A stretch of DNA of 64,000 nt. Origin: Pseudomonas huaxiensis (GTDB lineage Bacteria; Pseudomonadota; Gammaproteobacteria; Pseudomonadales; Pseudomonadaceae). A model generated the notes under the pieces. It was not told the DNA's origin. It did no database searches and was given only the letters and a program-made list of their open reading frames with translations. A program made the translations under genes and the position numbers. The stretch's first letter is position 1. Each line of letters begins with the position of its first letter. Location: the NCBI RefSeq assembly GCF_003231275.1, contig NZ_QKVL01000034.1, forward strand, positions 1 through 64,000, given 5' to 3'. This document shows positions 42,918 through 62,729 of this stretch, in pieces.

Positions 42918-43052
42918 GTTGGGCCCGCGATATGGGTGGATGCCGAGGTGAAGCACTGCCGGCCAATGGCTTTGACCCTGATTACCCCGTGCAAGCCGGA
43001 TGACTTGCCGGCGTTCAATCAGGCGATTGTCGACGCGTTGCGGGCCGCTTGA
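42918..43052 (+). pseudogene. Possible C-terminal coding remnant
   Basis: Between the xthA start and a hairpin, the plus strand has a 44-codon open frame with protein-like composition, reading IWVDAEVKHCRPMALTLITP and ending PAFNQAIVDALRAA before TGA. It has no plausible start or ribosome site and begins just after a stop. It may be the tail of a deleted gene, or chance. I do not recognise the family. Confidence 0.2.
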
Positions 43053-46580: not shown

Positions 46581-47744
46581 ATGAGTCAAGCAGACGATAT
46601 TGGAAACCTGTTCCACCGCTTTGGGGCAAGTGCTGACAGCTACAAAGAAATCAACACCGAATTCGAATTCCTCGAACCGTTGCCAGTCGCTGCCGCCCCG
46701 CCCTCACCGCCCGCCGCTCCAGCGCCGGCCAGGCCGGTGGCGATTAACCTGGTCGAAGTCAAGCGCCCGCTCGTCGTAGCCGCCCTTCCCGCCGCACCGC
46801 CACTAACAGCGCCCGTGCTTGCGGTGCCCTTGGTAGGCAGTAGCGAAGACCTCCCCCTCGGCACCTCCCTGCGTGAACGCCTGGCAGTCGTGGCCCGCGA
46901 TCGTCACGCCGCCGCCGAAGAAAACATCCGCCGAGCCCTCGACAACGCCCTGCGCGCCCAGCCGCCACAACGGCCCAAGGCCCATGTCATCGTTGTGATA
47001 TCCGCCAAAGGCGGTGCTGGCAAAACTACCGTCGCAGCGTCCTTGGGCAAACTGCTCAAACGCACCACCGGTCGCACTCTGGTGCTCGACCTGGACTCGC
47101 AGAATTCCCTGCTCAGCCACTTCAACCTGCCCCGCTCCACGCCCGGTATCAACCAGGCTCGCTTGCAGGAGGCCGGCTGGGATGGCATCCGCGCACCAAC
47201 CGAAAGCGGTATCGAATGCCTGCCCTTCGGCCCGAGCAACGTCGCCGATGTGCGCGCCTTCGAAGCGCAACTGGCGGCCAATCCAGCCTGGCTGATGCAG
47301 CAACTGGCGACCCTCGAACTGAGCGCCGACGACCTGCTGGTCATCGACACTGCAACCGGCGCCACGCCGTGGTTGCACCAGGTACTAGGCGTTGCCAATC
47401 AGGTGATTGCCCTGACGCTGGCCGACGCCGCGTCCTATCTGGTACTGGACAAGCTGCAAGCCTGGCTCGCGCCGCTGCGTCCCGGAACCTGTGGTTTCCT
47501 CGTCAACCAGGTCGATGCCCAGCGTCCGCTGAGCCTGGATATGGCCGAAGTGCTGCGTCAGCAACTGGGCGAGCGCTGGCTGGCCGCCCTGCCGCTGGAC
47601 CACCAGTTCGACGAGTCCCTGGCCTACGAGTACGACCCCCTGCAACAACCGCTCGACAGTCCTGCATGCCAAGTTCTGCGCGCGGTTGCCCATGATCTGG
47701 CTCAACGAATCGAGCAATACCGCGAAGAAACCAGCGCCTCATGA
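46581..47744 (+). CDS. wssA: WssA: MinD/ParA-like ATPase of cellulose synthesis (BcsQ-like)
   Basis: This 387-residue protein has a C-terminal ATPase domain with a deviant Walker A, VVISAKGGAGKTTVAASLGK (Lys148), and VIDTATGATPW as the Walker B region. The N-terminal 130 residues are low-complexity, Pro/Ala-rich; the opening SQADDIGNLFHRFGASADSY resembles the start of BcsP/WssA-type proteins. BcsQ relatives place or activate the cellulose synthase at the cell pole. It overlaps wssB by four bases (ATGA), the first of several such couplings. Confidence 0.9.
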   Translation: MSQADDIGNLFHRFGASADSYKEINTEFEFLEPLPVAAAPPSPPAAPAPARPVAINLVEVKRPLVVAALPAAPPLTAPVLAVPLVGSSEDLPLGTSLRERLAVVARDRHAAAEENIRRALDNALRAQPPQRPKAHVIVVISAKGGAGKTTVAASLGKLLKRTTGRTLVLDLDSQNSLLSHFNLPRSTPGINQARLQEAGWDGIRAPTESGIECLPFGPSNVADVRAFEAQLAANPAWLMQQLATLELSADDLLVIDTATGATPWLHQVLGVANQVIALTLADAASYLVLDKLQAWLAPLRPGTCGFLVNQVDAQRPLSLDMAEVLRQQLGERWLAALPLDHQFDESLAYEYDPLQQPLDSPACQVLRAVAHDLAQRIEQYREETSAS

Positions 47745-49966
47745 CCGCCCAACTCACCCCGACGCCGGTCTTGCCGACGTCCAGGAGGGCGCGGGCGATA
47801 GCCTGGTTTGCCCGCTTCGAACAATTGCCAGACGGCCTCAAGCTCGGTCTGAAGATCGGCTCGGCGGTGCTCGGCTTGCTGCTGCTGGTAGCTGTAGTCA
47901 CCACGCCACTGGAGTTGGTGCCACAGGTCGCCTTCGCGGTTCTGTGCCTGGCGCTGTTGCTGGTCCTGCGCAAGGTGCCAGGACGCATCCCGGTAATGGC
48001 GATGATCGCGCTGTCGCTGATCGCCACCCTGCGCTACGTGTACTGGCGACTTACCGACACCCTCGACTTCGATAACGGGCTGGACATGTTTTTCGGCTAC
48101 GGGCTGGTAGCCGCCGATATCTACGCTCTGATCATCCTCTCCTTCGGCTACCTGCAGACCGCCTGGCCACTTCAGCGCAAGCCGATGATCCTTACCACGC
48201 CGCCGAATGAATGGCCGGTGGTGGACGTGTTCGTGCCGACGTACAACGAAGAACTGAGCATCGTCAAACTCACCGTGCTGGCCGCCCAGGCGATGGACTG
48301 GCCACGTGACAAGCTGCGCGTCCATGTTCTCGACGACGGCCGCCGCGAGGAGTTTCGCGAGTTCTCCCGGCAGATCGGGGTCAACTACATCGTTCGCGAC
48401 AACAACCGTCACGCCAAGGCCGGCAATCTCAACGAAGCGCTGAAGGTCACCGACGGCGAATTCATCGCGATCTTCGACGCCGACCACGTGCCGACCCGTT
48501 CTTTCCTGCAAGTGACCATGGGCTGGTTCCTCAAGGACCCAAAGCTGTCGCTGCTGCAGACGCCACACTTTTTCTTCTCCCCCGACCCGTTCGAGAAGAA
48601 CCTCGACACCTTCCGTTCGGTACCCAACGAGGGCGAGCTGTTCTACGGCCTGGTGCAGGACGGCAACGACCTGTGGAACGCCACCTTCTTCTGCGGCTCC
48701 TGCGCAGTGATCCGCCGCACCCACCTGCTGGAAGTCGGCGGCGTGGCGGTGGAAACCGTGACCGAAGATGCCCACACCGCCCTCAAACTCAGCCGCAAGG
48801 GCTACAACACCGCTTACCTCGCCATCCCCCAGGCCGCCGGGCTGGCCACCGAAAGCCTGTCGCGCCATATCAACCAGCGCATTCGCTGGGCACGGGGCAT
48901 GGCGCAGATCTTCCGCACCGACAACCCGTTCATCGGCAAGGGACTGAGTTTCGGCCAGAGAATCTGCTACGTGAACGCCATGATGCATTTCTTCTACGGT
49001 TTGCCCCGCCTGGTGTTCCTCACCGCGCCGCTGGCCTACTTGATCTTCGGCGCACAGATCTTCCACGCCTCGGCCATGATGATCACCGCCTACGTGCTGC
49101 CGCATATTTTCCACGCCAGCCTGACCAACTCACGGATCCAGGGGCGCTTCCGCCACTCGTTCTGGAACGAGGTGTACGACTCGGTGCTGGCCTGGTACAT
49201 CATGCGCCCGGTGCTGGTCGCGCTGATCAACCCGAAAATCGGTGGTTTCAACGTCACCGACAAGGGCGGGATCATCGAGAAGGACTACTTCGACTGGAAG
49301 CTGGCCCGGCCCTACATCGTGCTGCTGGTGCTGAACCTGATCGGCATCATCTGCGGCGTCGTGCAGTTGTTCATCGGCGACCCCGACGCCGTACTCACCA
49401 TCGTCATCAACCTCGGCTGGACGCTCTACAACGTCATCATGAGCAGCACCGCCGTGGCGGTGGCCAGTGAAAGCCGCCAGGTACGCACAGAGCCGCGGGT
49501 TCACGCCGAACTGCCGGTACGACTGAACCTGCCAGACGGCCGCGAGATCGACTGCCACACCGTCGATTTCTCGCAGAGCGGCGTGGGCGTGAAACTGCCG
49601 CCGGGCGTGAGCCTGAACAAAGACATGGATCTGAACGTCACCTTGCACCGTCAGGGCCAGGCCTGCGTGCTGCCGGCCCGGGTGATGTTCGCCCGCGGCA
49701 ACATGGCCGGTATGCGCTTCCATGAACTGACCCTGCGACAGCAGAGCGACATGGTCCGTCTGACCTTCTCCCGCGCCGACACCTGGGCGTCGTCCTGGGG
49801 CAGCAGCAACGTCGACACCCCACTGAGCGGTCTGCGCGACGTCAGCAAGGTCGGCCTGCGCGGCATGTCCGACCTGGCCAAAGCCACCCTGGCCGCGCTG
49901 CACCATCGTCGCTACTTCCGCAAGACCAACACCCCGAACATTGAACCTGCAATGGAAACGCAATGA
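47741..49966 (+). CDS. wssB: WssB: cellulose synthase catalytic subunit (BcsA)
   Basis: This 741-residue inner-membrane glycosyltransferase family 2 enzyme has the processive signature in order: VLDDGRREEF and IFDADHVPTR (Asp residues binding UDP-glucose), TEDAHTALKL (catalytic base) and HINQRIRWARG (Q-x-x-R-W). A C-terminal PilZ domain (about 575-680, with EPRVHAELPVRL) binds c-di-GMP and releases auto-inhibition. Flanking TM helices form the export channel. It polymerises glucose into beta-1,4-glucan and pushes it to the periplasm, together with the disrupted partner gene at 49963. It overlaps wssA and wssC by four bases each. Confidence 0.96.
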   Translation: MTAQLTPTPVLPTSRRARAIAWFARFEQLPDGLKLGLKIGSAVLGLLLLVAVVTTPLELVPQVAFAVLCLALLLVLRKVPGRIPVMAMIALSLIATLRYVYWRLTDTLDFDNGLDMFFGYGLVAADIYALIILSFGYLQTAWPLQRKPMILTTPPNEWPVVDVFVPTYNEELSIVKLTVLAAQAMDWPRDKLRVHVLDDGRREEFREFSRQIGVNYIVRDNNRHAKAGNLNEALKVTDGEFIAIFDADHVPTRSFLQVTMGWFLKDPKLSLLQTPHFFFSPDPFEKNLDTFRSVPNEGELFYGLVQDGNDLWNATFFCGSCAVIRRTHLLEVGGVAVETVTEDAHTALKLSRKGYNTAYLAIPQAAGLATESLSRHINQRIRWARGMAQIFRTDNPFIGKGLSFGQRICYVNAMMHFFYGLPRLVFLTAPLAYLIFGAQIFHASAMMITAYVLPHIFHASLTNSRIQGRFRHSFWNEVYDSVLAWYIMRPVLVALINPKIGGFNVTDKGGIIEKDYFDWKLARPYIVLLVLNLIGIICGVVQLFIGDPDAVLTIVINLGWTLYNVIMSSTAVAVASESRQVRTEPRVHAELPVRLNLPDGREIDCHTVDFSQSGVGVKLPPGVSLNKDMDLNVTLHRQGQACVLPARVMFARGNMAGMRFHELTLRQQSDMVRLTFSRADTWASSWGSSNVDTPLSGLRDVSKVGLRGMSDLAKATLAALHHRRYFRKTNTPNIEPAMETQ

Positions 49967-52300
49967 CTGTCACGGCTCTCACCGACGAAAAAGTGAATCC
50001 GCTGCGCCGTCCGCGCACCCTGCTGGCCTGCGCACTGCTGCTGGGCAGCCTTGGACACGCCGCCGTCGCCGAAGAAACGGCGCAAGTGCCCGCCAGCCCG
50101 GAGGCCGACGCCCTATCCGTTGCTGGCGCGCCGGGCTACCGCCTCAGCTTCAAGGAGCTGGGCAAGGACTACACCATGAGCCTGCGCGGAATCGAGTCGA
50201 GCGACACGGTCAACTTCGACATGCGCGCCGACGAAGTGGTGACCGGCGCCCAACTGACGCTGCAATACACCTATTCGCCAGCGCTGCTCAGTGAGCTGTC
50301 GCAGATCAATATCATGGTCAACGACGAGGTGGCTGCCAGCCTGCCGCTGCCCAAGGAAAACGCTGGCACGGTACAAAAGCACACCATCGAAATCCCGCCG
50401 TACCTGATCACCGAGTTCAATCGCCTCAGCGTGCAGTTGATCGGCCACTACTCGATGCAATGTGAAGACCCGGCGCATTCGAGCCTGTGGGCCAAGGTCA
50501 GCAACGACAGCCAGTTGAGCATTCAGGTCTCCCAGGTCGAGCTGCCCAACGACCTCGCCGGTCTGCCATTGCCCTTGTTCGACCGCCGCGACCGCCGTGC
50601 CCTGGCAATGCCGTTCGTGTTTGCCGCAGCGCCAGATACCACCACGCTGGAAGCCGCCGGTGCGGTGTCGTCGTGGATGGGTGCGTTGGCCAGTTACCGC
50701 GGCGCGCGGTTCTCCAGTCAGGTGCAGAGCCTGCCAGCCAAAGGCAACGGCATCGTTCTGGTCAACAGCAATGAAGCCAGTCACCTCGACGGCCTCGACC
50801 TGCCGTCAGTGCAGGGCCCGACCCTGTCGCTGGTAAGCAACCCCAACGACCCCTACGGCAAGCTGCTGGTGATCGCCGGCCGCGACAGCGACGAGATCAA
50901 GCGCGCCGCCACCGCGCTGGTGGTGGGCAGTCGCAGTCTGTCCGGGCAAAGCGTGCAGATCGACACGGTCGATATCCTGGTGCCACGCCAACCTTATGAC
51001 GCGCCGAACTGGCTACCGAGCGATCGCCCGGTGCGCCTGGGCGAATTGCTCGAACCGCGCCAGCTCAACGTTTCCGGCTATTCCCCGGCAATGATCACCG
51101 TGCCGATGCGCCTGCCGCCAGACCTGTTCAACTGGCGTGAAGACGGCGCCCGGTTGAACCTCAAGTACCGCTACACACTGCAGCAGACCTCGGCCAGTTC
51201 GTCGTTGATGGTTGCCTTCAACGACCAGTTCGTCGTTGATGGTTGCCTTCAACGACCAGTTCATCCGCTCGATGAACCTGCCGTCGATCGAGAACATGAA
51301 TACCGGCGAGAAGCTGCTTAAGGCATTGAAAGCCGACGACAATGTACTCCGCGAAGCCAGTATGCTGCTGCCGCTGGAGTCGGTTGCGCTGCAATCGCGC
51401 CTGCAGTTTCGGTTCATGTACGACTTCATCAAGCAGGGTGAATGCAACGACATCATCATCGACAACATGCGCAGTGCGATCGACCCGGAATCCACGATCG
51501 ACCTGAGCCACTATGACCATTACATGGCCATGCCCAACCTCGGCGTGTTCAAGGACAGCGGTTTCCCATTCACCCGCCTGGCCGACCTGTCGCAGACCGC
51601 AGTAATCCTTCCGGACAACGCCGGCCCGGCTGAATGGGACGCCTACCTGACCGTACTCGGCCGCTTCGGCGACTCCACCGGCTACCCGGCCACCGCGGTC
51701 AGCGTGGGCCAAGCCGACGATATCTCACAGTTCACCGACAAGGATCTGTTGGTGCTGTCGTCCGGCAACAACCAGCCGCTGCTCAAGGAATGGGCCGACT
51801 ACCTGCCGAGCCGCAGCGAAGATGCCAAGCGCTACGTGGAGTTCTCCGACCTGCCGATGCGCGTGCGCGAATGGATCAGCCCGGACCCGGTCGCCAACCA
51901 GCGCAAGGCCCGTGGCGCACTGACCTTCAGCGGCGAAAACGGCAGTTCCTACGTCAGCGGTTTCGAATCGCCGCTCAAGCGCGGCCGCAGCGTGGTGGTG
52001 CTGTCCAGCCCACAGCCACAGAACCTGGCGGAGGTCACCGATGCGCTGATCGGCGGTGAACATTACACCCAGTCGCTGCAAGGCAGCCTCGCGATGATCA
52101 AAGGCAAGCACGTCCAGTCGCTGGTGGCCGATGAGTCCTATTACGTCGGCCATCTCGGCCCGTTCAAATACATTCAGTGGGTGTTGTCGCAGCACGTCTT
52201 CCTGCTGCTGGGGCTGACCGTGCTGGGTGTAACCCTGGTCAGTTGCGCAGCCTACTTCTCGCTGCGGGCGATCGCCAGACGCCGGCTCAAGGACGAGTAA
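49963..52300 (+). pseudogene. wssC: WssC: cellulose synthase subunit B (BcsB), frameshifted by a 31-bp tandem duplication
   Basis: The first frame (49963-51321) has a signal peptide and matches the N-terminal BcsB domains for about 415 residues, then continues with about 35 unrelated residues to a stop. The rest of BcsB lies in the +1 frame (from about 51212 or ATG 51239 to 52300) and ends with the membrane anchor helix HVFLLLGLTVLGVTLVSCAA. The cause is visible: bases 51194-51224 are exactly repeated at 51225-51255. Without one copy the reading frame is continuous at 769 codons (768 residues), the normal BcsB size. BcsB guides the glucan across the periplasm and is essential for BcsA activity, so cellulose output should be lost unless the repeat collapses. 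Confidence 0.9.
51194..51262. repeat. 31-bp perfect tandem duplication inside wssC
   Basis: Two identical 31-bp units (51194-51224, 51225-51255) are followed by seven bases of a third start, giving 38 nt of direct repeat. Bases on either side differ. The unit length is not a multiple of three, so it shifts the frame. Replication slippage could both create and remove it. Confidence 0.97.
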
Positions 52301-52303
52301 TCC

Positions 52304-53524
52304 ATGAAAACCGTCAAACTCGCCAAGCGGCGCGCGCCGCTGAAAACTCTGCTGGCTGCGGCGCTGAGCGCCTGGCTGCTGCCCGGCACGAGCCAGGCCG
52401 CGAGCCAGTGCGCCGTCTCCGAGTGGCCGCTGTGGCACAGCTTCACCCAGCACTTCATCCAGCCTGACGGCCGGGTGCTGGATGCCAGCACGCCGCAGTT
52501 GCACAGTTCTTCGGAGGGCCAGTCTTACGGCATGTTCTTCGCCCTGGTGGCCAACGATCGCGTCGCCTTCGACAAGCTCTGGGCCTGGGCCAAGAACAAC
52601 CTTGCCGGCAGCGACATCGGCAACAACCTGCCTGGCTGGTGGTGGGGCAAGGACGACAAGGGCCAGTGGCGCCTGCTGGACACCAACTCGGCCTCCGACG
52701 CCGACCTGTGGTTCGCCTACGACCTGATCGAAGCCGCCCGGCTGTGGAAGGACGAGCGCTACAGCCAGGAAGCCGCGCTGCTGCTGAACAACATCAAAAG
52801 CAAGGAAGTGGCCGATCTGCCAGGCCTGGGCAAGATCATGCTGCCCGGCCCGCAAGGCTTCGCCAAACCCGACCACTTCTGGCACCTCAACCCCAGCTAC
52901 CTGCCGGTGCCAGTGCTGCGCCGCATGGCCGGGGTCGATCCGCAAGGTCCGTGGAACGATATCGCCCGCAGCACCGCCACGCTGATGAAAGGCGCCGGCC
53001 AGCACGGTTTCGTCGCCGACTGGGTTGGCTACCGCGGCACCGGGCCGGGCAACGGCCTGTTCGTCATCGACCCGGTCAAGGGCGAAGTTGGCAGCTACGA
53101 CGCCATCCGCGTCTACCTGTGGGTGGGCCTGACCCCCAACAGCGACCCGCTATTCAAACCGATGCTCGACAGCCTCGGCGGCATGGCCCAGACCGTCGCG
53201 ACCCAAGGCACGCCGCCGGAAAAAGTCCAGGTCAAAAGCAACACCACCAGCGGCGACGGGCCCTTCGGTTTCTCTGCCGCCCTGCTGCCCTACTTCAAGG
53301 CCCGCCAGCAACCCTGGCTGGAGCAACAGCAGCGCGCGCGCGTCGATACGCTGCTGGCCAAGAGCCTGACCCCGGAAGCGGTCCAGGCCCGACAACCCCC
53401 TTATTACGACGTGGTGCTCAGCCTGTTCGCCCTTGGCTACATGGACCAGCACTACCGCTTCCTCGCCGACGGGAAGCTGCAACCTCTCTGGGAGACTTCA
53501 TGCGCTCGCGCCGCCAAACCATAG
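52304..53524 (+). CDS. wssD: WssD: periplasmic endo-beta-1,4-glucanase (BcsZ, GH8)
   Basis: This 406-residue protein has a signal peptide (LAAALSAWLLPGTSQAAS). The glycoside hydrolase family 8 pattern is present: SSEGQSYGMFFALVANDRVA (catalytic Glu), NSASDADLWFAYDLIEAARL (the family signature) and DAIRVYLWVGL (catalytic base Asp region). It trims nascent cellulose and is needed for efficient export and proper matrix structure. Its last 25 bases overlap the wssE start. Confidence 0.94.
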   Translation: MKTVKLAKRRAPLKTLLAAALSAWLLPGTSQAASQCAVSEWPLWHSFTQHFIQPDGRVLDASTPQLHSSSEGQSYGMFFALVANDRVAFDKLWAWAKNNLAGSDIGNNLPGWWWGKDDKGQWRLLDTNSASDADLWFAYDLIEAARLWKDERYSQEAALLLNNIKSKEVADLPGLGKIMLPGPQGFAKPDHFWHLNPSYLPVPVLRRMAGVDPQGPWNDIARSTATLMKGAGQHGFVADWVGYRGTGPGNGLFVIDPVKGEVGSYDAIRVYLWVGLTPNSDPLFKPMLDSLGGMAQTVATQGTPPEKVQVKSNTTSGDGPFGFSAALLPYFKARQQPWLEQQQRARVDTLLAKSLTPEAVQARQPPYYDVVLSLFALGYMDQHYRFLADGKLQPLWETSCARAAKP

Positions 53525-56500
53525 CCGTCGGCCTGCTCGCCGCCCTGATCCACAACAGTGGCCACGCCGAACTCAACGAGAACGGCAAGGCGCTGCTCGA
53601 ACAGGGGCAGTACTGGCAAGCGCGCAAGGACCGGGCCCGGGCGTCCGAAGCCTGGCGCAAGCTGCTGCTGATCGATCCGCAACAGGCCGATGCCATCTAC
53701 AACCTCGGCCTGCTGGAACTGGACGGCAATCGCCCGGACGGCGCCAAGCGCTACCTGGAGCAATTGAAAAAAGCCCATCCCGGCGAGCGCCAGGCGCTGC
53801 TGCTGGAACAGGAAATCAAGCTGCACGGCGACGACAACGCCGAGCGCCTGAACCAGGCGCGGGTACAGGTCGAGTCCGGTGAAGGCGACAAGGCCGTGGC
53901 GGGTTACCGCGAGCTGTTCGACGGCAGTGCTCCGCAGGGCGAACTGGCCCTGGAGTTCTACGGCACCCTCGGCTACACCGCCAACGGCTGGCAGGAAGCG
54001 CGTCAGGGTCTGGAACGCCTGCAACGCCAGGACCCTGACAATGGCCGGATCAAGCTGACCCTGGCCAAGCTGTTGCTGAGCAACGAAAGCACCCGCGCCG
54101 AGGGCATTCGCCGGCTGGCGTCCTACCGCAACGATCCGGCCATCGGCAGCCAGGCCGTGGAAGCCTGGCGCCAGGGCCTGTCCTGGCTCGGCGGCGGCAA
54201 GGCCGACATCGCGCTGTACGAGGACTACCTGAAGGCCTACCCGGACGACGAGGAAATCCGCGAACAGATGCGCACCGGCCTGCGCCAGGCGCAATCGACC
54301 TATCAGCAGAATCCCCATCTGCAGCGCGGTTTCAAGGCGTTGGAAAACGAAGACCTGAGCGCCGCCGAACTGGCCTTCCAGGCACGCCTGCGTGAAGCCC
54401 CGCAGGATGCCGATGCGCTCGGCGGCCTGGGTCTGGTGCGCCAGCGCCAGGGCCGGCTGAACGATGCCGACGCCCTGCTGCGCCAGGCCATCAAGCAAGG
54501 CAATGCCAGTCGCTGGCAAAGCGCACTGGTCGCCAACCGCTACTGGGTATGGCTGGACGAAGCCGCCGAAGCCCGCGAGGCCGGCAATCCGCAAAAAGCC
54601 CGCGAGCTGCTGCAACGGGCCATCGCCGCTAACCCGCGAGAAGTCCAGGGCCATCTGAGCCTGGCCGACCTGCAAGCGTCCCAAGGTCAGTTCGGCAGCG
54701 CCGAAACCACCTATCGCCATGCCCTGAGCCTGGACGCCGGCCAGCCGGACGCCCTCACGGGCCTGGTCAGCGTACTCGCGCAGAACGGCAAGCTCAGTGA
54801 AGCCCAGCGCCTGATCGACAACCTCAGCGATGTCCAACGCCAGCGCCTCGGCGACCTGCGCAAACTGCGCGCCGCCATCGCCGTTGGCCAAGCCAAGGAC
54901 GCCGAGCGCCGCGGTGACCTGGAAGGTGCGCGCAAGTCTCTGGAAGACGCGGTGCGCAACGACCCGCAAAACCCCTGGACCCGCTCCGACCTGGCGAACA
55001 TCTACCTGAAGACCGATGCGCCGAACAAAGCGCGGCAGATCATGGACGAGCTGGTCCAAGCCAATCCCAACAAGGCCGAAGCGCTGTTCGCCGGCGCGCT
55101 GTTCGCCAGCCGCCAGGAGCAGTGGTCGAAAGCCCGGCAATTGCTCGACCGCATCCCGACCGGCCAACGCACCACGGCCATGGACAGCCTCGCCGAGGAA
55201 ATCGACCTGCGCCTGCTCGCCAGTCAGGCCCAGGCCCTCGCCAAACAGGGCAAGCGTTCCCAGGCGCTGGGCCTGCTGCAGCGAGCGGAAAGCAGCCTTC
55301 GCGCCAGCCCCGAGCTATACGCCGCGCTGGCTTCGGCCTATATCGACATTGGTTACACCGACCGCGCGGTAAGCCTGCTGCGCAACGCCATCGCCCAGAG
55401 CAGCAAGCCGACCCCGGGCCTGCGCATCGCCTACGGCGGCGCCCTGCTCAAGGGCGGCAAGGACGTTGAAGTCAGCCAGATCCTGCGCGATGTGCGCGGC
55501 GTGCCACTGAGCAGCACCGAACAACGTAGCTACGACGACCTGCTGTTCCAGTACACCGTGCGTCAGGCCGACCTGCTTCGGGAAAAAGGCGACCTGGTCG
55601 CCGCCTACGACACCCTCGCCCCGGCTCTGGCCCAGCGTCCGGACGACGCCCAGGCGGTGTCGTCGCTCGCACGTATGTACCTGGATAACCGCAACCCGCA
55701 GAAAGCCGTCAACCTGTACCAACCGTTGCTGGCCACGCAACCGGACAACGCCGATGTGCAGATGGGTGCCGCCCTGGCCTTCCAGCAGAACGGCCAGACC
55801 GCGCAAGCCGAAAAGGCCATCGAGCGCGGCCTGCAACTGGCCCCGGAAAACCCGCAAGTGCTGAGCACCGCCGCCGCGTGGTACCGCAGCCGTGGCAAGC
55901 TGGCCAAGGCTCAGGAACTGTACGCCCAGGCATTGGCCCTGCAGGGTCCGAAGGACACGCTGATCGACAATCCGTTCGGCGAAGCCATCGCGGCCAACCC
56001 CTTCGTCGGCCAACCCGGCCAGCGCAAGGCGTCGCGTCTGGAAGGCATGGCGTTCAACGAAATCCCCGAGCCGGCGCAGGTCCAGGTCAAGGCGCGCAAG
56101 GCCGCGAGCCTTGCCGCCGCGCCAGAAGACAGCGAGCCGTTCGACGAGCCAGTGTTGGTTGCCAGTCGCGAGGTCGAGCCCGGCCAGCGCCGCCGCGCGC
56201 TGCCGGTGGAGGAGCCGGAGCGCGCAGTGGTCAATCCTGATCCACGTGCATCGATCGAAGCGGAACTGGCGAGCATCCGCGAGTCGCGCAGCCCGCAGAT
56301 CAAGCAGGGCTTCACCGTGCGCACCAACAACGGCGAGTCGGGGCTCGGCAAGATCACCGATATCGAGGCGCCCCTGGAAATCAGCTTCCCGGTGCGTGAT
56401 GACCGCATGGCGATTCGCGTGACACCGGTGTCGCTGAATGCGGGCAGCATGCATGAATCGAGCAACAGCAGTCCGCGCTTTGGTGGGTTCCGCGTCGAAG

Positions 56501-57507
56501 ATGTCGCCCACATCCTGACGCTTCCAACAGCCCAGCAACCTGACGCGGCCGACGCCTGGCAGGAAGACCTCGGTGGCATCGGCTCCCAGAGAGACAAGGG
56601 TGTCGGCCTCGCCGTGGCCTATGAAATGCCGTCGCTGGGCCTGACGACCGACCTGGGCACCAGCCCGGTCGGCTTCCGGGAAACCAACGTGATCGGCGGC
56701 GTCAGTCTGGACCGGGCCTTCACCGAGACCAGCAACTTCCGCTACAACCTCAACCTGTCGCGGCGCTCGGTGACCGACAGCCTGGTGTCGTTCGCCGGGG
56801 CACGGGACGCGCGTACCGGCGTGGAATGGGGTGGCGTCACTGCCAACGGCCTGCGGGCCCAGGCCAGCTATGACAACCAGCGTTTTGGTGCCTATACCTA
56901 CGCCGGCTGGCACAAGCTGACGGGTACCAACGTCGAGGACAACGAGCGCGTCGAACTGGGCAGCGGCATCTACTGGTACCTGCTCAACAACCAGGACTGG
57001 CGACTGACCGGCGGGCTCAGCCTGTCTGGCTCCACCTACGACAACAACCAGAGCTTCTTCACCTACGGCCACGGCGGTTATTTCAGCCCGCAGACCTTCT
57101 TCTCCATCGGCCTGCCAGTCAGCTGGGCACAACGTGGGCCGAACTGGAGCTATCAGGTCCAGAGCTCGGTCGGCCTGCAACACATCGAGCAGGAAAGCGC
57201 ACCGTACTATCGCAAAAACAGTTCGCAGGCAGCGCTGGAAAGCCTCGCCCAGGCTTATGCAGCCGACGGGCAGTTCATCAACACCCGCTACGAATCGCAG
57301 AACAAGACCGGCATCGGTTATTCGCTGGGCGCCAGTGGCGAATACCGCCTTGGCGACGGTTTCTTCTTCGGCGGCACCTTCGGCGTGGACAACGCCCGCG
57401 ACTATCGACAATTCACCGGTGGCCTGTACTTGCGCTACCTGTTCGAGGATGGCGGCGGCGCCATGCCGCTGCCCGTCAACCCTTACCGTTCCCCTTATTC
57501 GAACTGA
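53500..57507 (+). CDS. wssE: WssE: cellulose export protein with TPR domain and outer-membrane barrel (BcsC)
   Basis: This protein is 1335 residues. A signal peptide (VGLLAALIHNSGHA) is followed by about 800 residues of tetratricopeptide repeats, then a Pro/Glu-rich linker and a C-terminal BcsC beta-barrel (from about 940) with the family segment GFRETNVIGGVSLDRAFTET and GTFGVDNARDYRQFTGGLYL. It forms the periplasmic scaffold and outer-membrane exit for cellulose. GGGAG lies 5-6 nt before the ATG at 53500; the much longer open frame starting at 52639 is an out-of-frame shadow in wssD. Confidence 0.94.
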   Translation: MRSRRQTIAVGLLAALIHNSGHAELNENGKALLEQGQYWQARKDRARASEAWRKLLLIDPQQADAIYNLGLLELDGNRPDGAKRYLEQLKKAHPGERQALLLEQEIKLHGDDNAERLNQARVQVESGEGDKAVAGYRELFDGSAPQGELALEFYGTLGYTANGWQEARQGLERLQRQDPDNGRIKLTLAKLLLSNESTRAEGIRRLASYRNDPAIGSQAVEAWRQGLSWLGGGKADIALYEDYLKAYPDDEEIREQMRTGLRQAQSTYQQNPHLQRGFKALENEDLSAAELAFQARLREAPQDADALGGLGLVRQRQGRLNDADALLRQAIKQGNASRWQSALVANRYWVWLDEAAEAREAGNPQKARELLQRAIAANPREVQGHLSLADLQASQGQFGSAETTYRHALSLDAGQPDALTGLVSVLAQNGKLSEAQRLIDNLSDVQRQRLGDLRKLRAAIAVGQAKDAERRGDLEGARKSLEDAVRNDPQNPWTRSDLANIYLKTDAPNKARQIMDELVQANPNKAEALFAGALFASRQEQWSKARQLLDRIPTGQRTTAMDSLAEEIDLRLLASQAQALAKQGKRSQALGLLQRAESSLRASPELYAALASAYIDIGYTDRAVSLLRNAIAQSSKPTPGLRIAYGGALLKGGKDVEVSQILRDVRGVPLSSTEQRSYDDLLFQYTVRQADLLREKGDLVAAYDTLAPALAQRPDDAQAVSSLARMYLDNRNPQKAVNLYQPLLATQPDNADVQMGAALAFQQNGQTAQAEKAIERGLQLAPENPQVLSTAAAWYRSRGKLAKAQELYAQALALQGPKDTLIDNPFGEAIAANPFVGQPGQRKASRLEGMAFNEIPEPAQVQVKARKAASLAAAPEDSEPFDEPVLVASREVEPGQRRRALPVEEPERAVVNPDPRASIEAELASIRESRSPQIKQGFTVRTNNGESGLGKITDIEAPLEISFPVRDDRMAIRVTPVSLNAGSMHESSNSSPRFGGFRVEDVAHILTLPTAQQPDAADAWQEDLGGIGSQRDKGVGLAVAYEMPSLGLTTDLGTSPVGFRETNVIGGVSLDRAFTETSNFRYNLNLSRRSVTDSLVSFAGARDARTGVEWGGVTANGLRAQASYDNQRFGAYTYAGWHKLTGTNVEDNERVELGSGIYWYLLNNQDWRLTGGLSLSGSTYDNNQSFFTYGHGGYFSPQTFFSIGLPVSWAQRGPNWSYQVQSSVGLQHIEQESAPYYRKNSSQAALESLAQAYAADGQFINTRYESQNKTGIGYSLGASGEYRLGDGFFFGGTFGVDNARDYRQFTGGLYLRYLFEDGGGAMPLPVNPYRSPYSN

Positions 57508-57528: not shown

Positions 57529-58188
57529 ATGGCTGCTTCTCTTCTCGCTGGTCTGACGATCCTGATGATCGGCGACAGCCACCTGGCAACGCCGGACTAC
57601 CTGATCAAGAGCCTGCACGACAACCTCGTGCAACAGGGCGCGCAAGTGCACTCGCTGGGTGTCTGCGGCTCCAAGGCCGGGGACTGGACCAAAGTCACGC
57701 CGGGCGAATGCGGCGGCGCCGAGCGGCGCAACAAGGACAAGGCCGTGGTCCTCGGCAACAAGGCCACCACCCAGCCGATCAGCCAACTGATCGCCGCCGA
57801 CAAGCCAGACCTGATCGTGGTGGTCATGGGCGACACCATGGCCGACTACACCAAGCCGGCCTTCCCGAAGACCTGGATCTGGCAGCAGACCACCAGCCTG
57901 ACCAAGGAAATCAAGAACGCCGGCACCAAGTGCGTGTGGGTCGGGCCGAACTGGGGCAGCGAAGGCGGCAAGTACGGCAAGACCTACGCCCGTGTCGAAC
58001 TGACCTCGAAGTTCCTCGCCAGCAATGTCGCGCCGTGCGATTACATCGACTCGCTGAAGTTCTCCAAACAAGGCCAGTGGGCTACCATCGACGGCCAGCA
58101 CTTGACCAGCATGGGCTACATCAGCTGGAGCAAGGCCATCACCGACGCACTGCTGGCAAGCCCGGTGGTCAAGGACGTGAAGAAATGA
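57529..58188 (+). CDS. wssF: WssF: SGNH-type cellulose acetylation protein, N-terminus uncertain
   Basis: This 219-residue protein has a GDS-type SGNH motif, LMIGDSHLATPDYL (Ser about 16), near the start and DGQHLTSMGYISWS late (catalytic His region). In SBW25 WssF takes part in acetylating cellulose. AGGAG (57516-57520) is 8 nt from the ATG at 57529. An ATG at 57524 in another frame reads MKWLLLFSLV and stops; that looks like the start of a signal peptide. Either an indel has separated the signal from the enzyme, or this protein uses its short hydrophobic start. It overlaps wssG by four bases. Confidence 0.85.
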   Translation: MAASLLAGLTILMIGDSHLATPDYLIKSLHDNLVQQGAQVHSLGVCGSKAGDWTKVTPGECGGAERRNKDKAVVLGNKATTQPISQLIAADKPDLIVVVMGDTMADYTKPAFPKTWIWQQTTSLTKEIKNAGTKCVWVGPNWGSEGGKYGKTYARVELTSKFLASNVAPCDYIDSLKFSKQGQWATIDGQHLTSMGYISWSKAITDALLASPVVKDVKK

Positions 58189-58853
58189 GCCACCTGAGCG
58201 CACTGCTTACTGCCCTGCCGCTGGCCATGGCCGCTGGCATCGCCAGCGCCGATGTAGCGTTGTACCCGACCGGCCCGAGCGAAGACTCGGCCTTCCTGCG
58301 CTTCGTCAACGTCGCCCCCGGCGTGCTGGACATGCAGGCCAGCGGCTCCAAGGCCAGCCTCAAGCTGGACGACAGCCAGAAGGTCTCGGCCTACCTGCAG
58401 GTGCCGGCCAACAAGCCGATCAAGGGCACCCTCAGCAACGGCGCCGCCAGTTCGGCTCTGGACCTGCAAGTCGCGCCGGGCGAGTTCGCCACGGTGTTCG
58501 CCTTCAACGACGGCGGCAAGATCAGCCAGCGCGTGGTGCGCGAGCAACCGGACGATTTCAACTCGTTGAAAGCCTCGCTGGCCTTCATCAGCCTCGACCC
58601 CGCCTGCCAGGCCCCCGGCCTGCGCCCGGCCGGTCGCAACGCCGACCTGTTCAAGGACGCCGTCGATGGCAGCGTGCAGCGCCGCTCGATCAACCCGGTG
58701 AAGCTGTCGGTGCAACTGGTCTGCGCCAACGCCAGCGTCGGCAATCCGCTGGACCTGGGCGAACTGAAGGCCGGTGAGCGCTACAGCGTGATGCTGCTGC
58801 CGGGCGCCGAGGGCCCGCGCCTGCTGAACACTACCGACACGTTGTCCAACTGA
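58185..58853 (+). CDS. wssG: WssG: AlgF-like periplasmic acetylation protein
   Basis: This 222-residue protein has a signal peptide (LTALPLAMAAGIASA). The body resembles AlgF: VALYPTGPSEDSAFLRFVNV, then KVSAYLQVPANKPIKGTLSN and GEFATVFAFNDGG. It is expected to bind the acetyl carrier or the glucan during O-acetylation with WssH and WssI. The ATG overlaps the stop of wssF. Confidence 0.9.
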   Translation: MSHLSALLTALPLAMAAGIASADVALYPTGPSEDSAFLRFVNVAPGVLDMQASGSKASLKLDDSQKVSAYLQVPANKPIKGTLSNGAASSALDLQVAPGEFATVFAFNDGGKISQRVVREQPDDFNSLKASLAFISLDPACQAPGLRPAGRNADLFKDAVDGSVQRRSINPVKLSVQLVCANASVGNPLDLGELKAGERYSVMLLPGAEGPRLLNTTDTLSN

Positions 58854-58871: not shown

Positions 58872-60287
58872 ATGGTTTTCGCCTCACTTGAGTTCCTTAC
58901 GCTGTTCCTGCCGCTGTTCATGCTGGTCTATGCACTCAGCCCGGCGCGGGGACGCAACCTCGTGCTGCTGCTCGGAAGCTGGTTCTTCTATGGCTGGCTG
59001 AGCCCGCTGTTCCTGCTGCTGCACGTGGTACTGACGGTGATCGCCTGGGCCGGCGGCCTGGCGGTGGACCGCAGCCGCGAGGACTCACTGGGGCGCCTGC
59101 GGCTGCTGGCGGCGCTGATCGTGTTCAACACCCTGGTGTTGTGCTGGTACAAGTACGCCAACATTCTCGCCGCCACCTACAACCAGTTGATCACCCACTA
59201 CGGCGCACTGCCGGTGGAGTGGCAGCGAGTGGCGTTGCCGGCGGGGCTGTCGTTCATCGTGCTGCAGGCCATTTCCTATCTGGTCGATGTGCACCGCCAC
59301 ACCGTACCGGTGGAGCGCAGTCTGGTGAATTTCGCCACCTACATCTCGATGTTCGGCCACTCCATCGCCGGCCCGATCATTCGTTATGACTGGGTGCGCC
59401 GCGAGCTGAACCAGCGCTACTTCAACTGGCAGAACTTCTCCCTCGGCGCGCGCCGTTTCATGATCGGCATGTGCATGAAAGTGCTGGTGGCCGACACCCT
59501 GTCGCCGCTGGTGGACGTGGCGTTCCACCTGGAAAACCCGTCGTTCCTCGATGCCTGGCTGGGCTGCCTGGCCTACTCGCTGCAACTGTTCTTCGACTTC
59601 GCCGGCTACAGCGCCATGGCCATCGGGCTGGGCCTGATGCTGGGGTTCCATTTCCCGGAAAACTTCAACCGGCCTTATCTGGCCAGCAGCATCCAGGACT
59701 TCTGGCGGCGCTGGCACCTGTCGCTGTCGAGCTGGCTGCGCGACTACCTGTACATCGCCCTGGGCGGCAACCGCTACGGCACCTGGAACACCTACCGCAA
59801 CCTGTTCCTGACCATGGCTATCGCCGGCCTCTGGCACGGTGGTGATAGCTGGAACTACCTGCTCTGGGGCGCGGCCCACGGCGTGGCACTGTGCATCGAC
59901 CGGGCGTGGAACCGCTCCAGCCTGCCGGCGATCCCGAAAGCCCTGTCACACACCCTGACGCTGCTGTTCGTCTGCCTGGCCTGGACTCTGTTCCGCGCTC
60001 CGGACTTCGACACGGCACTGTCCATGTACGCCGGCCAGTTCGGCCTGCACGCCTTCGCCCTGGGTGAAGCGCTGGCCGCCACGGTGCGCCCGGTGCACGC
60101 TTTGGCGGCGGCACTCGGCGTGTTCTGCGTGATCGCGCCGCTGTACCAGGCGCGCCTCGAACAACGTTTCGGTCACAGCGCGCTGTACGCGGTGGTGGCT
60201 GCCCTCTGGCCCGTGGCCGGTTTCCTGCTGGCGTTCTCGTTGATCGCCAGCCGTGATGCCGTGCCCTTCCTGTACTTCCAGTTCTGA
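58872..60287 (+). CDS. wssH: WssH: MBOAT membrane O-acyltransferase (AlgI-like)
   Basis: This 471-residue protein has about 11-12 TM helices. The MBOAT core contains DFAGYSAMAIGLGLMLGFHF, NRPYLASSIQDFWRRWHLSL (first conserved His) and IAGLWHGGDSWNYLLWGAAH (catalytic His). Like AlgI for alginate, it should transfer acetyl groups across the inner membrane for cellulose acetylation. Its stop overlaps the wssI start (TGATG). Confidence 0.95.
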   Translation: MVFASLEFLTLFLPLFMLVYALSPARGRNLVLLLGSWFFYGWLSPLFLLLHVVLTVIAWAGGLAVDRSREDSLGRLRLLAALIVFNTLVLCWYKYANILAATYNQLITHYGALPVEWQRVALPAGLSFIVLQAISYLVDVHRHTVPVERSLVNFATYISMFGHSIAGPIIRYDWVRRELNQRYFNWQNFSLGARRFMIGMCMKVLVADTLSPLVDVAFHLENPSFLDAWLGCLAYSLQLFFDFAGYSAMAIGLGLMLGFHFPENFNRPYLASSIQDFWRRWHLSLSSWLRDYLYIALGGNRYGTWNTYRNLFLTMAIAGLWHGGDSWNYLLWGAAHGVALCIDRAWNRSSLPAIPKALSHTLTLLFVCLAWTLFRAPDFDTALSMYAGQFGLHAFALGEALAATVRPVHALAAALGVFCVIAPLYQARLEQRFGHSALYAVVAALWPVAGFLLAFSLIASRDAVPFLYFQF

Positions 60288-61438
60288 TGACGACCAAGAC
60301 GCCTCCGCCGAGTACGGCACCGATCCCACCGAGCGAAATCGCTCTGCGCACCAGCACGCTGGCGGGGGTCACTCTGGCCGCCTTTCTCGCCGCCGGCCTG
60401 CTGTCCTGTGGCTGGCTGCTGGTCAGCGGCAAGCTCGAACTGCTGCCCGGGAAACCGCTGTCCAACGACGCGGTGCTGGAAGGCGAAATCACCCACCGCA
60501 TCGCCAAGGAGCTGGCCAAGGCGCCGCTGCCGGAAAACGCCGCGCAACTGGAGCGCGGCGGCAGTTGGCTGACGCTCGGTGACACCGGCCCGCGGGTGCG
60601 TGAAGGCTGCCCGCAGTGGCTGTTCATCAGCGACGAATTGAAGATCAACCGCCACCGCGAGGACAACGCCAAGGCAAAAGCCGAGGCGGTAATCGCCCTG
60701 CGCGATCAGTTGAAACAGCGCGGGATTGAATTGCTGGTCAGTGTGGTGCCGGACAAGAGCCGTATCGCCGCCAGCCAGTTGTGCGACCTGCCGCGCCCGG
60801 CCAGCCTGGAGCCGCGGATACGTGACTGGACCGGCGCCCTGCAAAGCGCTGGCGTTGCCGTTCTCGACCTCACCCCTGCCCTGCAACCGCTGGGCGCTGA
60901 GGCCTTCCTGCGCCTCGACACCCACTGGAGCGAAACCGGCGCCCGCGCCGCAGCCGTGGCGATCAGCCAGAAAATTGCCGCCATGGGCATCGAAGCCACG
61001 CCCAAGCGCACCTTCGCCGTCAGCCCGCAGCCGGCCGCGCCGCGTCCCGGCGACCTGGTGCGACTGGCCGGGCTGGACTGGCTGCCGGCTCGCTTGCAGC
61101 CGCTGCAAGAACAGGTGGCCGCGTCCAGCATCAACGAAGAGACTCCGAATGCCGACAGCGCGGGTGATAGCCTCGACGACCTGTTCGGCGACGACAATCT
61201 GCCGAACCTGGCACTGATCGGCACCTCGTTCTCGCGCAACTCCAACTTCGCCGGATTCCTGCAGCAGTCACTGTCGGCGCCGATCGGTAACTTTGCCAAG
61301 GATGGCGGCGAGTTTTCGGGCGCGGCCAAGACGTACTTCGCCAGCCCGGCGTTCGCCCAGACGCCGCCGAAACTGCTGATCTGGGAGATACCGGAGCGGG
61401 ATTTGCAGACGGCTCCGGTTGGCGTCATCAACCTGTAG
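60287..61438 (+). CDS. wssI: WssI: AlgX/AlgJ-like acetyltransferase of cellulose
   Basis: This 383-residue protein is anchored by an N-terminal helix (TLAGVTLAAFLAAGLLSCGW). The SGNH-like fold shows in LLVSVVPDKSRIAASQLCDL, the Asp-x-His motif LDTHWSETGARAAA (about residues 208-221) and a late GTSFSRNSNFAGFL (nucleophile Ser). It should complete transfer of acetyl groups to periplasmic cellulose. It is the last gene of the operon here; the second MinD-like gene, wssJ, found after wssI in SBW25, is absent. Confidence 0.92.
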   Translation: MTTKTPPPSTAPIPPSEIALRTSTLAGVTLAAFLAAGLLSCGWLLVSGKLELLPGKPLSNDAVLEGEITHRIAKELAKAPLPENAAQLERGGSWLTLGDTGPRVREGCPQWLFISDELKINRHREDNAKAKAEAVIALRDQLKQRGIELLVSVVPDKSRIAASQLCDLPRPASLEPRIRDWTGALQSAGVAVLDLTPALQPLGAEAFLRLDTHWSETGARAAAVAISQKIAAMGIEATPKRTFAVSPQPAAPRPGDLVRLAGLDWLPARLQPLQEQVAASSINEETPNADSAGDSLDDLFGDDNLPNLALIGTSFSRNSNFAGFLQQSLSAPIGNFAKDGGEFSGAAKTYFASPAFAQTPPKLLIWEIPERDLQTAPVGVINL

Positions 61439-61457
61439 ACGCGCGACCTACAGGTTG
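61429..61457. terminator. Inverted repeat shared by the 3' ends of wssI and the convergent gene
   Basis: CAACCTGTAG and CTACAGGTTG form a perfect 10-bp stem with a 9-nt loop. Each arm contains the last codons and the stop of one of the two convergent genes, so both proteins end in Asn-Leu. The hairpin can terminate in both directions, though it has no T-run. Confidence 0.65.
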
Positions 61458-62542
61458 CACCCCGGCACCGGCGCGGGCCCATCCAGGTAATCGCGCGTCC
61501 ACTGCGCCAACGGCAACGGCGGTTGCTGCTCGAAGATCCTGTGCATGATCAGCTTCAGCGCCTCGGGATTGCGAATCGAATCCACCCCAGCGCCCGGCCA
61601 CGAACCCGGCGTCTGCACCTGCCAGTTGCCCTCGCCATCACACCCCGCCATGCGGAACCGGAAGGTGTAATTGCCGGGAATGCCCATGCGCAGATCACTG
61701 ACCACCAGCGCATCGCCGACCACGTCATAACGCAGCCAGTCGCCGGTGAACCAGCGCAGCCGCTCGTATAGCGGCGAGTCCTGCAACACCTTCGCCGCGT
61801 CGAGGTTCAGCGGCTGGATCTGCCATTCGGGCGGTTCGCTGTCGAACAGGCCGCTGACGCCTTCGTAGTAATGCCCGTCCGGCGTTTTCGCGACCACCCG
61901 CCACAGCAGCGTATTGAACGGCATCGGTACTGCGCGCAATTGCGTGACTTCAATTTGCTCGGCCCGCAGGGCGGAGTGGAAGCGTTGTTCGGCGATGTTC
62001 TTCGACAGCAGGCCAAAGCCCAGGTAAGCGGTACTGAACAGCAACAGCCCGGTGAGCACCGCCCTGACCCGGCCGTTCATACCCTTGACCACGGCGTAGA
62101 TCACGCCCGCCAGCAACGGCAGCGTGTAAACGGGATCGATGATAAACACCGCTGCCCAGCTTTGCGGGGTCGGCTGGAACGGCCACAGCAGCTGCGTGCC
62201 ATAGACGGTAAAGGCATCCAGCAACGGATGGGTGATCAGCACCAGCCAGTACGCGAGAAACACCCGCGGCCCACTGTAACCGGCGTCGGGTCGTCGCCTG
62301 CGCACCACCAGCATGGTCAGCCAGGTCAACAACAGCGCCAGACCGGTGAGTACCAACAATGAATGGGAAAAACCGCGGTGGAACGTCATCTTCGACACCG
62401 GGTCGGCGTAGCGGATGGCCACGTCCAGATCCGGCAATGTGGCGAGCATGGCGCCATACAGCAGGGAGCGGCGGCCCTGCACCTTGCCGAGTACAGCCCC
62501 CTGAAGCGCTGCGCCCAAAACGGCCTGGGTCAATGAGTCCAA
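61448..62542 (-). CDS. Inner-membrane metal-dependent hydrolase (YdjM-like)
   Basis: This protein of about 364 residues starts with a TTG (AGGGGA 6-7 nt upstream). It has several TM helices and the YdjM-family opening MDSLTQAVLGAALQGAVLGK, ATLPDLDVAIRYADP and HRGFSHSLLVL, whose Asp and His residues suggest metal binding. Relatives are LexA-regulated in E. coli; no LexA box was noted here. It is convergent with the wss operon. Confidence 0.85.
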   Translation of the reverse strand: MDSLTQAVLGAALQGAVLGKVQGRRSLLYGAMLATLPDLDVAIRYADPVSKMTFHRGFSHSLLVLTGLALLLTWLTMLVVRRRRPDAGYSGPRVFLAYWLVLITHPLLDAFTVYGTQLLWPFQPTPQSWAAVFIIDPVYTLPLLAGVIYAVVKGMNGRVRAVLTGLLLFSTAYLGFGLLSKNIAEQRFHSALRAEQIEVTQLRAVPMPFNTLLWRVVAKTPDGHYYEGVSGLFDSEPPEWQIQPLNLDAAKVLQDSPLYERLRWFTGDWLRYDVVGDALVVSDLRMGIPGNYTFRFRMAGCDGEGNWQVQTPGSWPGAGVDSIRNPEALKLIMHRIFEQQPPLPLAQWTRDYLDGPAPVPGCNL

Positions 62543-62624
62543 CGGCGTCCCCTTCCGATTGCGAAAGCGTCGATGCTAGCGCAGTGGGCTGCAAGAAAAC
62601 ACCATGCAGTGAACAACCTTTGAA

Positions 62625-62723
62625 GGCCTCATCGCTGCGGTTCGGCGCCCCGACAAGCCAGCTCCCACAGTGAACCGAGTGCACCACAAAACCTGTGGGA
62701 GCCGGCTTGCCGGCGATGAGGCC
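62625..62723. repeat. REP pair with terminal 10-bp inverted repeat
   Basis: The element runs from GGCCTCATCG (62625-62634) to CGATGAGGCC (62714-62723), exact complements. The left arm has the extra TGCGGTTCGGCGCCCCGA block also present at 37.98, 43.90 and 44.03 kb. The right arm is TGTGGGAGCCGGCTTGCCGG. It lies directly after the glutathionylspermidine-synthase-like gene's stop. Confidence 0.9.
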
Positions 62724-62729
62724 CTCAGG

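Follow-up and report, generated by a model that had tools for sequence, protein, structure and literature searches.

A frameshifting 31-nt tandem duplication in the wssC cellulose gene of Pseudomonas huaxiensis, probably a recent mutation with latent reversibility

The wssC (bcsB) gene of the acetylated-cellulose (wss) operon in this Pseudomonas huaxiensis assembly contains a 69-nt array at positions 51194-51262 of the + strand, in which a 31-nt unit is present in tandem (coordinates refer to the window, the whole 64,000-nt stretch of DNA that was analysed). The array is bounded by copies of the 7-mer CCAGTTC, carries an inverted repeat within its unit, and shifts the reading frame into an early stop, while the neighbouring wss genes are open. 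We consider it likely that the array is a real and recent loss-of-function mutation of wssC, in which slippage between CCAGTTC repeats, helped by a hairpin, copied a 31-nt segment twice. Such a mutation would probably retain a latent reversibility, and nothing shows that the site has evolved into an on/off switch. We infer that the duplication is a late event in the history of the isolate that was sequenced, which may have happened in culture, and that it is not a maintained switch. The scope of the present analysis is a single mutation in a single assembly.

The array and the wssC reading frame

Two identical 38-nt copies, at 51194-51231 and 51225-51262, overlap within the array and define its period of 31 nt, in agreement with the exact 31-bp tandem duplication of wssC described in an earlier, sequence-only reading of this DNA. 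The 7-mer CCAGTTC is found at all three unit boundaries on the + strand, the microhomology at the unit ends that is the signature of slippage: the left slippage arm at 51194-51200, the junction copy at 51225-51231 and the right slippage arm at 51256-51262. Within the unit lies an inverted repeat (51201-51225) with 11-nt arms at 51201-51211 and 51215-51225, which are 91% complementary and include 8 bp of perfect pairing. The array is the only perfect tandem repeat with a period of 10-300 nt across the 64-kb window. Over the same range of periods, with whole loci scanned and N excluded, the longest perfect tandem period is 16 elsewhere in the assembly (347,539 further non-N bases, ~4 kb of them overlapping the window) and 17 in 100 other loci (646,998 bases, partly redundant). 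A perfect 9-nt tandem repeat, with a unit divisible by three, is also present inside bcsB at 50580-50597.

As now read, bcsB extends from its start at 49963 to a premature TAA at 51319-51321 (49963-51321, + strand), giving a product of 452 aa that ends in out-of-frame residues and matches positions 4-369 of the 606 positions of Pfam BcsB. The remainder, in its own frame (51263-52300, + strand), is open for 345 codons and encodes the C-terminal region (Pfam BcsB positions 354-606 of 606). The copies are perfect, the unit is not a multiple of three (31 = 30 + 1), and the ORF is open in relatives, as befits a duplication that shifts the frame of the BcsB gene, the effect that the earlier reading had ascribed to it. 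The gene spans 2338 nt, which is 2307 + 31, and 2307 nt correspond to 768 codons plus a stop. By this arithmetic, removal of one unit restores the 769-codon frame that had been predicted, and the protein of the relative Pseudomonas sp. Irchel 3E13 is likewise of 768 aa. Programmed frameshifting at this TAA (zero-frame GCT TAA) was considered and rejected: the relative has one uninterrupted frame, and inspection by eye revealed no slippery site.

The gene order wssA-I, which includes bcsQ, bcsA, bcsB, bcsZ and bcsC together with AlgF-, MBOAT- and AlgX-like acetylation genes, identifies the locus as a wss (acetylated cellulose) operon. Upstream of wssC are wssA/bcsQ (46581-47744) and the cellulose synthase gene wssB/bcsA (47741-49966). 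Downstream are the endoglucanase gene wssD/bcsZ (52304-53524), wssE/bcsC, encoding a TPR/outer-membrane protein (53506-57507, start approximate), wssF (57529-58188, named by position, with no NCBIfam match), the AlgF-like wssG (58182-58853, with its Pfam AlgF match below the curated cut-off), wssH, encoding an MBOAT acyltransferase (58872-60287), and wssI, encoding an AlgX-like acetyltransferase (60287-61438), all on the + strand. None of these eight genes (A, B and D-I) has an internal stop, and their proteins are 88-100% identical to those of Irchel 3E13, so the earlier statement that the downstream wss genes are all open is confirmed. No wssJ was found directly after wssI, and the long ORF that comes next (61448-62542) runs on the opposite strand. 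A single search of the genome for bcsB (E <= 0.001) returned one match and no second copy.

Relatives and the history of the site

Pseudomonas sp. Irchel 3E13 is the closest relative that was found; its bcsB is uninterrupted and encodes 768 aa, and the sole indel between the two genes is 31 nt long (split by the aligner into 27 + 4). The wider search for the duplication used one genome per species, in samples from which records very near the window may be missing; part of the matches were inspected as loci, and the rest were judged by open-frame length (genus sample) or match length (family sample). In the genus sample, bcsB is present in 112 of 398 genomes, the present genome included, and the 133 matches represent 132 gene copies, because the copy of genome G380 gives two matches. 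Of these 132 copies, 129 have frames that are open over 753 aa or more. The three short frames belong to the present gene (458), to G380 (361/432) and to a copy whose coordinates indicate that it is cut off by the end of a 5,485-bp contig (G222:C178, 632). The bcsB of genome G380 (G380:C1:1983000-1987500, ~1857-1938) is independently broken by an unrelated and distant frameshift that leaves overlapping 361- and 432-aa frames, with no tandem repeat of the wssC kind at the break. In the family sample, a 501-nt query spanning the array found matches in 37 genomes other than the present one; 34 of these matches fall short of the query by 31-40 nt, as expected without the duplication, and the remaining 3 are partial. 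No carrier of the duplication was found among the 50 loci of a protein scan of contigs or among 398 genus, 144 relative and 398 family genomes, samples that overlap one another. The sequence-only reading had suggested asking whether many relatives carry the same duplication in fixed form, and across other species they do not. Recombination with another lineage was also considered and set aside: measured in bins no longer than 150 nt, the identity of bcsB to that of Irchel 3E13 ranges over 85-95%, with its lowest value just 3' of the array and no clear imported tract.

The sequence under the left 7-mer is unusual among homologues. Residue 412, which lies under it, is Ser here and Asn in 36 of 37 distinct homologues with more than 50% identity. 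A match of at least 7 nt at offset 31 is found in 0 of 57 distinct homologues (20 of these below 50% identity), and five, the nearest relative included, have a match of 6 nt; for these counts identical stretches were counted once and alignments not spanning the site were left out. Taken together, the Ser in place of Asn and the lack of such pairs in the 57 homologues indicate that the full 7-mer pair is lineage-specific and not a conserved switch. The left 7-mer needs changes special to this lineage, and could therefore have arisen with the duplication event itself. In general, bcsB is poorer in 7-mer pairs (9.8 per kb, spacing 10-100) than the window mean (13.1). A contingency locus would be expected to keep a repeat-prone site in relatives; with none of the 57 homologues having the pair and no locus from another genome having the duplication, wssC does not look like a maintained contingency locus.

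Lineage-specific amino-acid changes were counted by a Tajima-type comparison with two outgroups (G009 and G318). On the 3' side of the array, the present gene has 23 changes vs 5 in Irchel 3E13 with outgroup G009, and 24 vs 4 with G318, compared to 11 vs 7 on the 5' side with both outgroups. Excesses are also seen in wssB (31 vs 8; 31 vs 14) and wssG (5 vs 0; 7 vs 0). At columns invariant across six outgroups, the changes here and in Irchel 3E13 number 1 vs 1 on the 5' side of the array and 9 vs 0 on its 3' side. The two branches do not have significantly different nonsynonymous/synonymous ratios (Fisher p 0.29 for the part 3' of the array, 0.27 for the gene as a whole). We read the excess as a faster branch, and not as proof of an old break. 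Relaxed selection was tried as a clock and proved ambiguous, since wssB is also faster on this branch and the ratios are not significantly different. A recent origin is favoured by the 345 codons without a stop after the array, by the lack of any further indel in bcsB, and by the open frames of the other wss genes.

Origin of the duplication and alternative explanations

The geometry of the array suggests hairpin-assisted slipped mispairing. During replication, the new strand would slip from the right CCAGTTC back to the left CCAGTTC, 31 nt upstream, with the hairpin-forming inverted repeat between the 7-mers aiding the slip, and the segment between the 7-mers would then be copied twice to yield the tandem array. 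Collapse to one copy might occur by the same slippage mechanism, at a low rate. Junction microhomology of at least 7 nt is expected in 0.12% of random 20-60-nt tandem duplications within the window (0.11% at period 31), and a perfect inverted repeat of at least 8 bp is enclosed by 12 of the window's 437 other 7-mer pairs with a spacing of 15-60 nt and is present in 35 of 4000 random 38-mers, both statistics having been picked after the site was seen. The single-stranded DNA fold of the 69-nt array is at -17.6 kcal/mol (z -5.3 vs shuffles), a score that is partly automatic because two copies of a unit bearing an inverted repeat can pair with each other; the z is -2.2 for the first unit with its flanks and -0.8 for the corresponding stretch of Irchel 3E13. 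On the whole, the junction looks like the product of DNA slippage rather than of assembly trouble. Tandem duplications mediated by microhomology have reportedly been studied in fission yeast. Unlike the short tandem duplications of E. coli topA mutants, which are described as independent of existing repeats (PMC6954433), the wssC unit has a 7-mer at its ends.

An assembly or sequencing artefact, in which the cell has one copy and the second was added by the assembler or from a minor read population, is an unlikely explanation. The assembly is a draft of 241 contigs, and the unit of 31 nt coincides with a common assembler k-mer length. However, the array lies at 51.2 kb, in the interior of a 67.6-kb contig, and at 69 nt is short enough for ordinary short reads; no other perfect tandem period above 16 occurs in the 347,539 bases scanned, and the 7-nt junction microhomology, so rare by chance at this period, is not needed for a misjoin. 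An old break appears highly improbable; in that case cellulose would have disappeared long ago, with some function retained by the N-terminal 452-aa piece and drift in the remainder. An old break would fit the excess of amino-acid changes after but not before the array and the 9 vs 0 changes at invariant columns, but the excess in wssB is similar, the 345 codons after the array contain no stop and bcsB no further indel, the two copies are identical across all 38 nt, and the wss genes further downstream have open frames, in which synonymous changes outnumber nonsynonymous ones on this branch. The explanation to which we give least credence is that the gene still works, its product being a BcsB that functions in spite of being split, made by a ribosomal restart inside wssC or a shift of frame. 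The downstream frame does contain ATG codons at 51239, 51272 and 51296, ahead of the TAA at 51319; none of them is preceded by a ribosome-binding site that is convincing by eye, the gene of the relative is a single open frame, and the C-terminal piece would have no export signal, which would leave its periplasmic domain stranded.

A recent slippage duplication, the origin that we favour, also bears on the proposal of the sequence-only reading that the strain could switch reversibly between cellulose-plus and cellulose-minus states. The part of this proposal that stands is geometric: a perfect 38-nt direct repeat could in principle collapse to one copy. Actual switching is unsupported, as neither the 7-mer pair nor the duplication was found in relatives, and from this one assembly on/off switching of cellulose can be called possible. 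In its stronger form, the proposal would make wssC a phase-variable (contingency) locus, at which the species keeps a polymorphism of one and two copies and cellulose is switched by slippage at an appreciable rate. We regard this as very unlikely, even though the perfect repeat is combined with a strong hairpin, loss of one unit would by arithmetic restore the frame of the remaining gene, and Pseudomonas offers a precedent in the reversible 661-bp frameshifting duplication of pheN/gacS (PMC10928948). Against it are the single genome in which the array is found, the lack of any perfect tandem period above 17 in the 100 other loci (most, but not all, covering bcsB), the lack of a 7-nt match at the same offset in all 57 homologues, the paucity of 7-mer pairs in bcsB, and the case of Xenorhabdus lrp, where such duplications occur and complete reversion was not seen (PMC6786866). 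Also distinctly unlikely is a young, structure-assisted hinge, in which the Asn-to-Ser change completes the 7-mer pair around the inverted repeat, the site has become prone to duplicate and collapse, and natural populations are mixed for cellulose-on and cellulose-off cells. If true, it would show a contingency locus just as it comes into being, in a structural gene.

Known counterparts and expected phenotype

Precedents exist both for cellulose genes thrown out of frame by a duplication (PMC13068021) and for a frameshifting duplication that is reversible, in Pseudomonas pheN (PMC10928948). In shaken culture of Komagataeibacter intermedius, 20-bp frameshifting duplications were found in bcsA and bcsC (PMC13068021). 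As in wssC, a short duplication in a gene of the cellulose synthase operon results in a frameshift, an early stop and predicted loss of cellulose; the Komagataeibacter units are of 20 bp, in bcsA and bcsC, and come from whole-population sequencing in an experiment, whereas the present 31-bp unit is in wssC of one Pseudomonas assembly. The same authors point out that mutations in cellulose genes did not predominate, and that regulation may likewise account for cellulose being lost and regained (PMC13068021). The 661-bp duplication in pheN (gacS) of Pseudomonas tolaasii is similar to the wssC array in shifting the frame inside one gene, and is described as reversible, with a switch of colony type (PMC10928948). 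Its unit is ~20 times longer, its target is a regulator, and switching was observed there, unlike in wssC. In prolonged culture of Xenorhabdus nematophila, tandem duplications of 26-116 bp in lrp are ordinary spontaneous knockouts, as the wssC array appears to be, although lrp is a regulator (PMC6786866). Complete reversions restoring lrp were never observed, and the available text leaves unstated whether carriers of duplications were among the isolates tested (PMC6786866); a tandem duplication alone is therefore no proof of reversibility on useful time scales. In P. fluorescens SBW25, recurrent mutations in wrinkly-spreader pathways have been attributed to direct repeats of 6 and 8 bp (PMC6324874). 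These hot spots share with wssC the short direct repeats and the link to the wrinkly-spreader mat, but they give in-frame deletions in the regulators awsX and mwsR, as opposed to a frame-shifting duplication in a structural gene (PMC6324874). No report of a wssC/bcsB duplication in Pseudomonas was found among literature titles and the openings of abstracts, in a search that was only partly aimed at this question and whose coverage excluded most subscription papers. An evolved heptanucleotide repeat that switches cellulose mats has reportedly been studied in SBW25.

In solved chains of BcsB (7l2z and others, from E. coli), the lost part of bcsB can be aligned with the C-terminal half, almost to the end. 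BcsB of the Gluconacetobacter complex is reported to be anchored by its C-terminal helix, which also binds the synthase and is required for synthesis (PMC4877109), and the wss operon of SBW25 encodes a structural component required for the wrinkly-spreader phenotype (PMC3914426). Because BcsB here would lack its C-terminal anchor, loss of cellulose is likely, a prediction made from the missing part of the protein. If the array is real, the sequenced isolate is probably cellulose-minus despite an otherwise complete wss operon, and predictions of phenotype from gene content would therefore mislead. The wssC array would also serve as a compact model of the way in which hairpin-assisted microhomology duplications disrupt, and maybe restore, biofilm genes, which bears on the origins of contingency loci.

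Other differences from Irchel 3E13 were seen in the window. Within wssE/bcsC, the stretch 56181-56580 is 79% identical to that of Irchel 3E13, with many small indels, compared to ~90% on either side. Near 42935, Irchel 3E13 has ~830 bp extra relative to the window. Conversely, ~91 bp near 62619-62709 are missing from Irchel 3E13; they lie inside nested inverted repeats with 21-nt and 15-nt arms (window 62619-62727), and look like an element of the REP/REPIN type.
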